A DNA stretch of 64,000 nucleotides, taken from Thermodesulfovibrio sp. Lineage in GTDB: Bacteria; Nitrospirota; Thermodesulfovibrionia; Thermodesulfovibrionales; UBA6898. How positions within the stretch are numbered: the stretch's first letter is position 1; every line of letters starts with the position of its first letter. The position numbers and the translations under genes were made by a program. The notes below the pieces were generated by a model. It worked only from the letters and a program-made list of their open reading frames with translations, ran no database searches and had not been told where the DNA came from. This document shows positions 4,698 to 8,398 of the stretch, in pieces. The stretch covers positions 1 to 64,000 of the forward strand of contig PNOC01000004.1 of assembly GCA_013824615.1 (NCBI GenBank), read 5' to 3'.

Positions 4698-7328
4698 ATG
4701 CACTGGCACAGGAAAACAGTAGAGGAGACCCTCACAGAACTCGGCACCTCTGCTGAGGGTCTATCCCGCGATGAGGCTCAGAAGCGGCTGCTCGAATACG
4801 GCCCGAATGAATTGACGGAGAAAGAAAAGAAGACACCGCTCATGATGTTCCTTGACCAGTTCAGGGACTTCATGATCCTCGTTCTGATCGCCGCAGCGCT
4901 TATTTCGGGCTTTATCGGCGAACTATCCGACACCATCGCCATTGTGGTTATTGTCGTTTTGAACGCGGTCGTCGGTTTTATCCAGGAGTATCGGGCTGAA
5001 AAGGCCATGGCAGCGCTTAAAAAAATGTCTGCGCCGTCCGCTACGGTCATGCGCAACGGCATGCCCGAAACCATACCCGCCTCCGGACTCGTGCCGGGAG
5101 ACCTGGTCATGCTCGAGGCAGGGAAGATCGTCCCGGCTGATATGCGACTGATAGAAGCTGCAGGTTTCAGGGTGGAAGAGGCGGCGCTCACCGGTGAATC
5201 CGAACCCGTGCAAAAACATACTGAAGAACTGCGCGATGAACAACTGTCCCTTGGCGACAGAAAGAACACAGCCTACAAAGGTACGATAGTGACCTTCGGA
5301 CGCGGCGCCGGCATTGTCGTGGACACCGGCATGGATACAGAACTCGGAAGAATCGCTTCCATGCTGCAGGAGGAGGAAGAGGTGAAGACCCCTCTTCAGA
5401 AAAGACTCGCCAGCTTTGGACAGAAACTGGCCTTTGCCGTCCTCGCCATATGCGGCATTGTTCTTGGCATAGGCATTATGAGGGGAGAGCCCCCCCTGCT
5501 GATGCTCCTCACCGCCATTTCGCTTGCTGTCGCTGCCATTCCGGAGGCCTTACCTGCGGTGATAACGATCTCCCTTGCCCTCGGGGCGAAGAAGCTGATT
5601 CTGCAACACGCCCTGATCAGGAAACTGCCGGCGGTGGAGACACTCGGTTCGGTCACCTATATCTGCTCTGACAAGACAGGAACTCTTACGCTGAACCGGA
5701 TGACTGTCGAGGAGATATATGTGGATGGGAAGATCTCCCGGGGTCAACAGGCAAAGGACCGGGGGCAGGAAAAAAGTATGATCGCCCCATATCCCTTATT
5801 CATGACAGCCCTCGCCTTAAGTAATGATGCACAGGCAGGCTCTGACGGCCTGGTTATAGGCGACCCGACAGAAACAGCTCTTTACGAGTTCGCACGGCAG
5901 GGTGGGTATGAGAAAAAAAACCTGGAACAAAAATACCCGAGAAGGGCCGAAATACCATTCGACGCAGACAGAAAATGTATGACGACCTTTCACCAGTGGC
6001 CGGACGGCAAATTCGTCTCGATCACCAAGGGAGCAATAGATGTTCTGCTTGACAGGTCGTCGAATCTCTTAACCGCAGAAGGCCTAAGGGATATCGACGC
6101 TGCCGCAATCCACGTGATCAACAATAAGATGGCTGCTGACGGTCTGAGGGTGCTCAGCATAGCAATGAGAACCTGGGACTCCCTGCCTGCTGATATGTCC
6201 GCCAGGGCAGTTGAGACTGGTCTTACCGTGCTGGGCCTTGCCGGTATGATGGACCCGCCGCGGGAAGAGGCGAAAGAGGCCGTGCGCTTATGCAAGGCAG
6301 CCGGGATCAGGCCGGTCATGATAACCGGCGACCACCCGATCACCGCAAGGGTCATCGCTGAAAGACTGGGCATCATCGAGGACGACTCAAAAGCCATAAT
6401 CACGGGGCGGGAACTGGATAACCTGTCTCTTGAGGAATTCGAGGAAAGGGTCGAGCATATCAGGGTATACGCCCGCGTCGCCCCTGAGCAGAAATTAAAA
6501 ATTGTAAAAGCGCTGCAGGACAAAGGCCAGTTCGTCGCCATGACCGGGGACGGGGTGAATGATGCGCCGGCGCTGAAGAGGGCGGACATCGGGATAGCGA
6601 TGGGCATTACCGGGACGGATGTTTCCAAGGAAGCTGCCCATATGATCCTCCTGGACGATAATTTTGCCACTATTGTAAAAGCGGTCAGGGAAGGTCGAAA
6701 GATATATGACAATATACGGAAATTCATCAGGTATCTCCTGACCACAAACTCGGGTGAGATATGGACCCTCTTCCTGGCCCCGCTTGTCGGCCTGCCCATA
6801 CCCCTGCTGCCGATCCATCTGCTCTGGATCAACCTTGTCACCGACGGACTTCCCGCCCTGGCCCTGTCTGCCGAACCGGCTGAGGGAGATGTCATGAACA
6901 GACCTCCTCGCCATCCCAAGGAGAGCATCTTCAGTCATGGACTGGGGGCCCATGCAGTATGGGTAGGCCTCCTTATGGGTGCTGTCGTCCTGTCAGTTCA
7001 GGCCTGGGCAATAAAAACAGAGCATACCCACTGGCAGACCATGGTCTTTACCGTTCTTTGCCTGACTCAGTTGGGTCACGTTCTTGCCATACGCTCGGAA
7101 AAGGCATCCCTATTCACCATAGGAATATTTTCGAACAAGTATCTTTTGGGCGCCGTACTGCTGACCTTCATCCTCCAAATGGCTACGATCTATTTACCGG
7201 CACTGAATACCATCTTCAAGACCGAACCGCTGACTCTGTACGAACTGCTGATTACTCTGGCATTGTCTTCGGTGGTGTTTATGGCCGTAGAAATAGAAAA
7301 GTTCCTGAAAAGGCGGGGCATAGGGTAG
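4698..7328 (+). CDS. P2A-type cation-transporting ATPase (Ca2+/Mn2+ exporter)
   Basis: An 876-residue P-type ATPase. Order of parts: N-terminal cation-ATPase domain (MHWHRKTVEETLTELGTS), TM1-2, actuator domain with LTGES, TM4 motif AAIPEALPAV, phosphorylation motif CSDKTGTLT with Asp325, nucleotide domain, hinge MTGDGVNDAPALK, and TM5-10. Ion-site residues of the SERCA/PMR1 group are present: TTNSGEI in TM5 and NLVTDGLPALAL in TM6. Family members export Ca2+ and/or Mn2+ using ATP. The upstream riboswitch favours Mn2+, as known for YoaB-type pumps under yybP-ykoY control. I chose ATG 4698 because it follows an AGGAGAT site and matches the family N-terminus; the frame stays open 44 codons further upstream, inside the zinc-ribbon gene. 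Confidence 0.92.
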   Translation: MHWHRKTVEETLTELGTSAEGLSRDEAQKRLLEYGPNELTEKEKKTPLMMFLDQFRDFMILVLIAAALISGFIGELSDTIAIVVIVVLNAVVGFIQEYRAEKAMAALKKMSAPSATVMRNGMPETIPASGLVPGDLVMLEAGKIVPADMRLIEAAGFRVEEAALTGESEPVQKHTEELRDEQLSLGDRKNTAYKGTIVTFGRGAGIVVDTGMDTELGRIASMLQEEEEVKTPLQKRLASFGQKLAFAVLAICGIVLGIGIMRGEPPLLMLLTAISLAVAAIPEALPAVITISLALGAKKLILQHALIRKLPAVETLGSVTYICSDKTGTLTLNRMTVEEIYVDGKISRGQQAKDRGQEKSMIAPYPLFMTALALSNDAQAGSDGLVIGDPTETALYEFARQGGYEKKNLEQKYPRRAEIPFDADRKCMTTFHQWPDGKFVSITKGAIDVLLDRSSNLLTAEGLRDIDAAAIHVINNKMAADGLRVLSIAMRTWDSLPADMSARAVETGLTVLGLAGMMDPPREEAKEAVRLCKAAGIRPVMITGDHPITARVIAERLGIIEDDSKAIITGRELDNLSLEEFEERVEHIRVYARVAPEQKLKIVKALQDKGQFVAMTGDGVNDAPALKRADIGIAMGITGTDVSKEAAHMILLDDNFATIVKAVREGRKIYDNIRKFIRYLLTTNSGEIWTLFLAPLVGLPIPLLPIHLLWINLVTDGLPALALSAEPAEGDVMNRPPRHPKESIFSHGLGAHAVWVGLLMGAVVLSVQAWAIKTEHTHWQTMVFTVLCLTQLGHVLAIRSEKASLFTIGIFSNKYLLGAVLLTFILQMATIYLPALNTIFKTEPLTLYELLITLALSSVVFMAVEIEKFLKRRGIG

Positions 7329-7391: not shown

Positions 7392-7421
7392 TTGACATTA
7401 CCCGTGATTATGCGATAGTAT
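7392..7421 (+). promoter_or_regulatory. Sigma-70-type promoter of the putative small RNA
   Basis: A perfect TTGACA (7392-7397) is followed after 18 nt by TAGTAT (7416-7421). It is preceded by a short tandem repeat of TTTCCGGCTTGC (about 7366-7390). Predicted start about 7428; no coding frame follows. Confidence 0.7.
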
Positions 7422-7427
7422 GTAATT

Positions 7428-7578
7428 AGGAACAGGACAACAAAACTTCTTACGGGAAGTTTGAATATACAGCAACCTGTGCGGACATTCTACCCTCCAG
7501 TTCGCACAGTATTCCTGAGGGTTTTCCCCGATCCCCAGCCCTCAGGATGCAGGCCCTCGCCAGAGGGCCTTTTTTTTT
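7428..7578 (+). ncRNA. Putative small RNA with C-rich hairpin loops
   Basis: This gene-free stretch has a promoter at its start, an intrinsic terminator at its end and three hairpins between them. Hairpin 1 is AAACTTC/GAAGTTT (7443-7462). Hairpin 2 is CTGTGCGGA/TTCGCACAG (7477-7509) with a loop containing ACCCTCCAG. Hairpin 3 is CCTGAGGG/CCCTCAGG (7514-7546) with the loop TTTTCCCCGATCCCCAG. The CCTCC and CCCC runs in loops are complementary to Shine-Dalgarno sequences, as in known C-rich-loop regulatory RNAs. I see no 6S, SRP, tmRNA or RNase P signature. Length about 145-150 nt. It may act in trans on mRNAs; targets are unknown. Confidence 0.65.
7551..7578 (+). terminator. Intrinsic terminator of the small RNA
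   Basis: Stem AGGCCCTC/GAGGGCCT (7551-7558 and 7563-7570) with a GCCA loop and a run of T residues. It has no T run on the opposite strand, so it does not serve cdsA. Confidence 0.88.
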
Positions 7579-7606
7579 CCTCTGCCGCCTGAAGAAAACA
7601 GATTAC

Positions 7607-8398
7607 TTACTGCAGAAGCCCGAACGCCAGGCAAACCCAGTAGAAGACCGGGCCTGCAAACGTACTGCCGTCAATCTTGTCGAGGATACCGCCATGTCCG
7701 GGAAATATATTCCCCGAATCCTTCACCCCGGCGTCCCGCTTCAGCATGGATTCAACGAGATCACCGACAATCGTTGTTGCACCAATGGCAGCTCCGAGAA
7801 CTGCACACTGTGCCAGGCCGATCTGCGGCAGCAGAGCGGTCCGGATAAGGACAGCCCCGGCGACACCACCGAGCAAAGACCCGAACGCCCCTTCGACGGT
7901 CTTGTTGGGACTCATGGCTTCATACAGCTTATATCTGCCCAGATTCTTGCCGATATAATAAGCCGCGCTGTCGGCAGCCCAGACAGAGGTGTACAGGAAG
8001 ATAATCCAGGAAGGTGAACGCTGCGCCAGGGTCAGCTGAAACGTAAGCAGCCCGGGGACATAGAGCAGTCCGAGCAGGACCGTAGCGGCTTCCTGCATGG
8101 AGGAGGCCGGGTCCGGCTTCAGAAAAAGCCTGAGCCCTAAAAAAAACAGGGCCGCCAAAAGCGACAGGGCGTACATATCTGCCAGAGACAGAAAGAAGGC
8201 CGCCATCACTCCAACACCCCAGGCAATGCCGAGATATTTCATGACCACATTCAGCCGGAACATGGTATAAAATTCATACAGTCCGAGGGCTGCAACAGCA
8301 GTTATCAGATAGAAAAAATACTGCACCGGCAGGCGCGTTACATAAAGAAACAGCAACGGCACCAAAATCGCGGCAACAATGAGTCGTCTAAGATGCAC
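7607..8398 (-). CDS. cdsA: Phosphatidate cytidylyltransferase
   Basis: A 263-residue polytopic membrane enzyme that makes CDP-diacylglycerol from phosphatidate and CTP, the branch point of phospholipid synthesis. The C-terminal CdsA signature is intact: SMLKRDAGVKDSGNIFPGHG followed by GILDKIDG. Several TM helices precede it. Its start overlaps the uppS stop by 11 nt, the usual uppS-cdsA arrangement. It appears to be the last gene of the GH57-FG-GAP-uppS-cdsA run. The canonical neighbour dxr is not in this window. Confidence 0.96.
   Translation of the reverse strand: MHLRRLIVAAILVPLLFLYVTRLPVQYFFYLITAVAALGLYEFYTMFRLNVVMKYLGIAWGVGVMAAFFLSLADMYALSLLAALFFLGLRLFLKPDPASSMQEAATVLLGLLYVPGLLTFQLTLAQRSPSWIIFLYTSVWAADSAAYYIGKNLGRYKLYEAMSPNKTVEGAFGSLLGGVAGAVLIRTALLPQIGLAQCAVLGAAIGATTIVGDLVESMLKRDAGVKDSGNIFPGHGGILDKIDGSTFAGPVFYWVCLAFGLLQ

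Follow-up and report, generated by a model that had tools for sequence, protein, structure and literature searches.

The window analysed here, a stretch of 64,000 nucleotides from a Thermodesulfovibrio sp. contig, carries on its plus strand a predicted RNA gene (7392-7579) in which a TTGACA promoter is followed by three hairpins and then an intrinsic terminator. The gene sits between a P-type cation ATPase gene, which ends at 7328, and a convergent cdsA-like (cytidylyltransferase) gene on the minus strand (7607-8398); as the initial annotation had claimed, this gap holds no credible open reading frame. The sigma-70-type promoter (7392-7419, plus strand) combines a -35 element, TTGACA (7392-7397), with a -10 element, GATAGT (7414-7419), across a spacer of 16 nt, and the two elements together match 10/12 consensus positions (single-site shuffle p about 0.025). 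Despite diverged surroundings, a TTGAC-type -35 is kept upstream of the conserved core of the RNA in 5/5 genomes of the window's genus, where the distance from the end of the -10 to the core is 38-52 nt, and a -35 of this type is also kept in several genomes beyond the genus. The combined promoter score lies clearly above that of shuffles in only some of the tested genomes. If the transcript starts about 7 nt past the -10, where we place it from the promoter sequence, it would extend from 7427 to 7579 on the plus strand and measure about 150 nt.

All of the predicted hairpins and the terminator could be located. The 154-nt strand folds at -58.8 kcal/mol, compared with -37.3 +/- 3.5 kcal/mol for dinucleotide shuffles (z = -6.2, 0/200), and in this fold both C-rich loops are unpaired with a probability of about 0.93-1.0. 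Hairpin 1 (7443-7462, plus strand, -5.6 kcal/mol) is specific to one lineage: it is confined to the window genome (L001) and its nearest relative (L002), so that the conserved RNA spans 7472-7579 and comprises hairpins 2 and 3 plus the terminator. The remaining elements follow on the same strand. Hairpin 2 (7477-7509, -14.3 kcal/mol) has a covarying stem of 10 bp, with two-sided changes at 9/10 pairs in the order, and presents the loop 1 motif ACCCTCCA at 7492-7499 (ACCCTCCC in other families), whose unpaired probability is about 1. Hairpin 3 (7513-7547, -16.9 kcal/mol; two-sided changes at 7/9 modelled pairs in the order) presents the loop 2 motif CCCCGATCCCC at 7526-7536, which is near-invariant in the family and recurs in the type B RNAs described below. 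The terminator (7551-7579) consists of AGGCCCTCGCCAGAGGGCCT, with its stem at 7551-7570 (-16.1 kcal/mol; two-sided changes at 7/8 pairs in the order), followed by a T tract. Loop 1 is ACCCUCCA or ACCCUCCC, almost letter-for-letter constant, and loop 2 is UCCCCGAUCCCC in the window's family and another C-rich sequence in other families. Mean column identity reaches 97.6% in loop 1, as against 82.6% in its stem and 63% in the linkers; a loop better conserved than the stem that carries it is what one expects of a seed or binding site.

The structure goes beyond chance, because its stems covary in relatives. A covariance model built from related genomes had been named as a check, and the compensatory changes that it called for are present in the stems: in the order-wide alignment, which was fitted to the model structure and is thus biased in its favour, 23/27 pairs show two-sided changes compared with 8.0 in shuffles (0/500 shuffles reach this number), 96.8% of cells are paired, and the covariation collapses when partners are slid. 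The family-only alignment, which was not so fitted, has 98.1% of its cells pairing and 7 pairs changed on both sides, compared with 2.6 in shuffles.

How widely is this RNA distributed? A DNA search of 61 relatives returned clear homologues in the same family only. Covariance model R1, built from 21 sequences, detected the RNA in 20/27 family genomes and no copy in the other 7/27, and it also matched at least 14 genomes of other families in the same order (E about 1e-8 to 3e-3). In the strongest of these distant matches (L209-L218) the ACCCUCCC loop is retained, the second loop is again C-rich, and the terminator is present, with a loop that is sometimes C-rich as well. Model R2, which includes these distant matches, placed the RNA in 32/396 Nitrospirota genomes, all of the same order, and revealed no homologues outside the order among the 396 genomes sampled. 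Motif-pattern matches in Streptomyces, Bacillus, Planctomycetota and Actinomycetes records were discarded, because the model did not score convincingly where the pattern lay. The named records with the motif are Nitrospirota metagenome-assembled genomes, including Nitrospiraceae bacterium UBA6898 and an assembly labelled 'Ngb-4', presumably the Candidatus Sulfobium genome Nbg-4 (PMC5812927). In a limited search of openly available papers, we came across no account of the RNA in Nitrospirota or Thermodesulfovibrio.

The genes that flank the RNA vary from genome to genome. In several genera, the core begins 1-10 nt past the stop codon of a DrsE_2-family (dsrE-like) gene (L006, L008, L009, L012, L013), and the same spacing is seen in genomes L209 and L211 of family f7, hence in two families in all. 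Two genomes from a further family (L214, L217) instead have the core behind a TetR gene, a relative of which precedes dsrE in f7. Together, the dsrE-adjacent cores and this TetR context suggest an ancestral site at the 3' end of dsrE, from which the RNA would later have moved. Conceivably, the element might then be mainly the 3' end of a dsrE-like mRNA, acting in stability or termination and as a small RNA only incidentally. The close spacing at the dsrE-adjacent loci speaks for this reading, but we regard it as a quite unlikely account of what the RNA is, given that the window and most other genomes have other neighbours and often a promoter-like site of the RNA's own, and that a terminator needs neither invariant loops nor a second hairpin with a separate loop motif.

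The same variability bears on whether the element acts in cis. Hairpins followed by a terminator do look like an attenuator; however, in the window the gene that follows is convergent, the neighbours differ between genomes and no conserved co-directional gene was seen downstream, and a leader, be it a riboswitch or an attenuator, is rejected on these grounds. A short coding gene fares no better, since changes concentrate in paired positions, where they are compensated, and in linkers, and inspection of the window showed no conserved peptide reading. We therefore give hardly any credence to a cis-acting leader or a short coding gene. Taken together, the covariation, the nearly invariant loop 1, the retained promoter-like sites, the terminator and the variable neighbours strongly support the prediction that the window element is a real non-coding RNA gene.

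Two features of the surroundings may be recorded here. In three genomes of one genus (L016, L017, L019), the core is followed after about 110 nt by a convergent frame that is about 500 codons long and contains repeats such as VVGQTSNGANNNLLILRYTSSGSLDTTFG. An Rfam scan also placed tRNA genes near several copies of the main and sibling RNAs (L033, L036, L003, L214), which possibly hint at insertion sites.

Is this a known RNA under another name? The initial annotation held that it fits no class, which is correct with respect to Rfam, where no family matches the window RNA at its cut-off and permissive thresholds yield sub-threshold matches only, and incorrect with respect to function, as a class of RNAs with C-rich loops directed against Shine-Dalgarno (SD) sequences is known (6C/B11, NfeR1/ar14, sX13). 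The anatomy of this class, stable hairpins with conserved unpaired C-rich loops and a terminator, is present here; with regard to a transcription unit of its own, the RNA has a promoter-like site and variable neighbours, yet is dsrE-adjacent in some genera. The ar14/SmelA075/NfeR1 RNA of Rhizobiales (RF02344) has three hairpins, each with the conserved C-rich anti-SD loop CCUCCUCCC and with diverging stems, and is a stand-alone trans-acting small RNA whose loops have been shown to act on the translation initiation region of mRNAs and to silence them there (PMC10746234, PMC3927594). The window RNA differs from it in loop sequences, stems and phylum, its loops being ACCCUCCA and UCCCCGAUCCCC rather than an identical CCUCCUCCC in three hairpins; no ar14 match was reported for the window stretch, and the best ar14 score among 15 loci at a permissive threshold was 26.6 bits (L213), compared with a cut-off of 58.8. 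In Actinobacteria, the two C-rich loops of 6C/B11 pair with G-rich ribosome-binding sites (RBSs) and repress translation (PMC10470900). The window RNA likewise has two C-rich loops, but instead of simple runs of C these read CCCUCC and CCCCGAUCCCC, the phylum is another one, and gathering and permissive scans gave no 6C match in the window or the tested loci. The sX13 RNA of Xanthomonas (RF02232) measures 115 nt and has three stems with C-rich apical loops, and the mRNAs that it represses have 4G motifs near the start codon (PMC3771888); the window RNA is unrelated to it in sequence and scores 13.4 bits against a cut-off of 50. The best sub-threshold Rfam score was obtained for suhB/mmgR (RF00519; 21.4 bits against a cut-off of 41), a likeness that consists of a C-rich unpaired stretch and a GC-rich terminator, with an alignment that rests on the terminator and C tracts. 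As membership tests for ar14, 6C, sX13 and suhB all failed, the RNA is a separate family that probably works like a known functional class. It thus represents an RNA family that is absent from Rfam and is kept throughout an order of Nitrospirota most of whose members are uncultured, and an apparently independent case of the stable-hairpin, C-rich anti-SD loop design otherwise seen in Rhizobiales, Xanthomonas and Actinobacteria.

How might this RNA act? In our estimation it is probably a trans-acting small RNA with its own promoter and terminator, whose C-rich loops occlude ribosome-binding sites and so repress translation. RBS occlusion appears most likely because analogues with the same anatomy repress through their C-rich loops. 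The gene, its structure, its loops, its distribution and the presence of Hfq, which is encoded in the genome (G000:C18), are computed; transcription, pairing, repression and targets we infer. We envision a scenario whereby the RNA would be transcribed from its own promoter and stopped at its own terminator, and whereby two stable hairpins would hold out the unpaired loops ACCCUCCA and UCCCCGAUCCCC. Each loop would pair over 6-10 bases with G-rich stretches (GGAGGG, GGGGAU) in the RBSs of a subset of mRNAs, perhaps with assistance from Hfq, and a paired RBS would block 30S binding and thereby repress translation.

The complementarity of the loops to RBSs, which had been noted at the outset, is real at the level of sequence. 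Among 382 genes predicted by a simple ORF caller in 457 kb of the genome (the window and 20 further stretches), and with start codons chosen by SD strength, GGAGGG, the complement of loop 1, is found in the SD region of 15/382 genes compared with 2 and 0 at control positions, and GGGGAT, the complement of part of loop 2, in that of 10/382 compared with 0 and 1; if the leftmost start is used instead, the two counts become 9 and 5 genes. A subset of RBSs is thus shown, by sequence, to be able to pair with the loops, which does not imply selection for pairing. Shuffled loops, however, pair about equally well, and the complementarity is for this reason generic to C-rich sequence: the mean energy of loop 1 against start regions is -8.5, a value that falls among those of 40 shuffled loops (-9.0 to -6.6); that of loop 2 is -8.6, weaker than its shuffle mean of -9.6. 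Target prediction, also proposed earlier, gave a divided answer, namely enrichment of the loop complements at SD positions but no conservation of the glmU and mlaD/mlaC candidates. Given the equal performance of shuffled loops and the two candidates that are not conserved, action at RBSs is something that we only infer.

The individual candidates were rejected for different reasons. At glmU, the complementarity lies where an upstream reading frame appears to continue, and it is not kept across genomes. At mlaD/mlaC, only a few genomes, all from a single genus, have the mlaC match, and one of them, G018, has a changed loop; several other TGGAGGGT matches near mlaD fall within the next reading frame. 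The window genome holds 11 sites of TGGAGGGT followed by ATG, including the antisense of the RNA itself, and most of them start no long frame. A full-length loop 2 complement as an mRNA target was likewise set aside, most other CCCCGATCCCC sites lying in long frames or belonging to further RNAs of this sort.

The CCCCGATCCCC motif is commoner in the family than its reversed control. Most of the extra occurrences sit in reading frames, and one intergenic group constitutes a second RNA, type B, with two hairpins carrying the loops ACCCUCCA or GAUCCCCA and CCCCGAUCCCC, and in many cases a promoter-like sequence immediately precedes the first hairpin. Model R3, in which the type B structure is poorly resolved, detects type B in a few of the family's genera, with about seven copies in G017 and six in G019, counts that exclude matches to the main RNA. 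The window genome has one copy (G000:C5:46939-47044, minus strand; L031, L314), with loops ACCCTCCA/GATCCCCA and CCCCGATCCCC and a -10-like TATGATAGT just upstream. Model R2 scores this copy weakly (25.6 bits), and a common origin of the main RNA and type B is therefore possible.

Alternatively, the C-rich loops of the RNA and its multicopy siblings may titrate a protein that binds C-rich RNA, much as CsrB binds CsrA via GGA loops. Consistent with such sequestration, the 11-nt loop CCCCGAUCCCC hardly varies within the family and is common to hairpins with unrelated stems, up to about seven gene copies per genome carry it, and no evident leader target with its full complement was found. Against this, loop 2 switches to other C-rich strings elsewhere, as would be expected of pairing or loose recognition more than of a single exact protein site, and we know of no bacterial C-rich-RNA-binding protein of this kind; we thus hold protein sequestration to be unlikely, and RBS occlusion remains our preferred reading. 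A broader and rather speculative proposal, to which we would assign a minor share of belief, is that the main RNA and type B form a lineage-specific network of sibling small RNAs sharing nearly invariant C-rich loops, either redundant on a common G-rich-RBS regulon or acting as a sponge for an undescribed protein that binds C-rich RNA, with the main RNA maybe born at a dsrE-like 3' end in relatives of Candidatus Sulfobium among the Nitrospirota. Because of the multicopy siblings and the dsrE linkage, questions of small RNA birth and redundancy become testable.

Finally, two copies of the main RNA have a changed loop 1, ACCACCA in genome G018 (L019, 1503-1610, minus strand) and ACCCTCGA in genome G007 (L045, 1329-1435, minus strand), the latter genome having a second copy with an intact loop 1; the changed-loop copies are useful natural variants.
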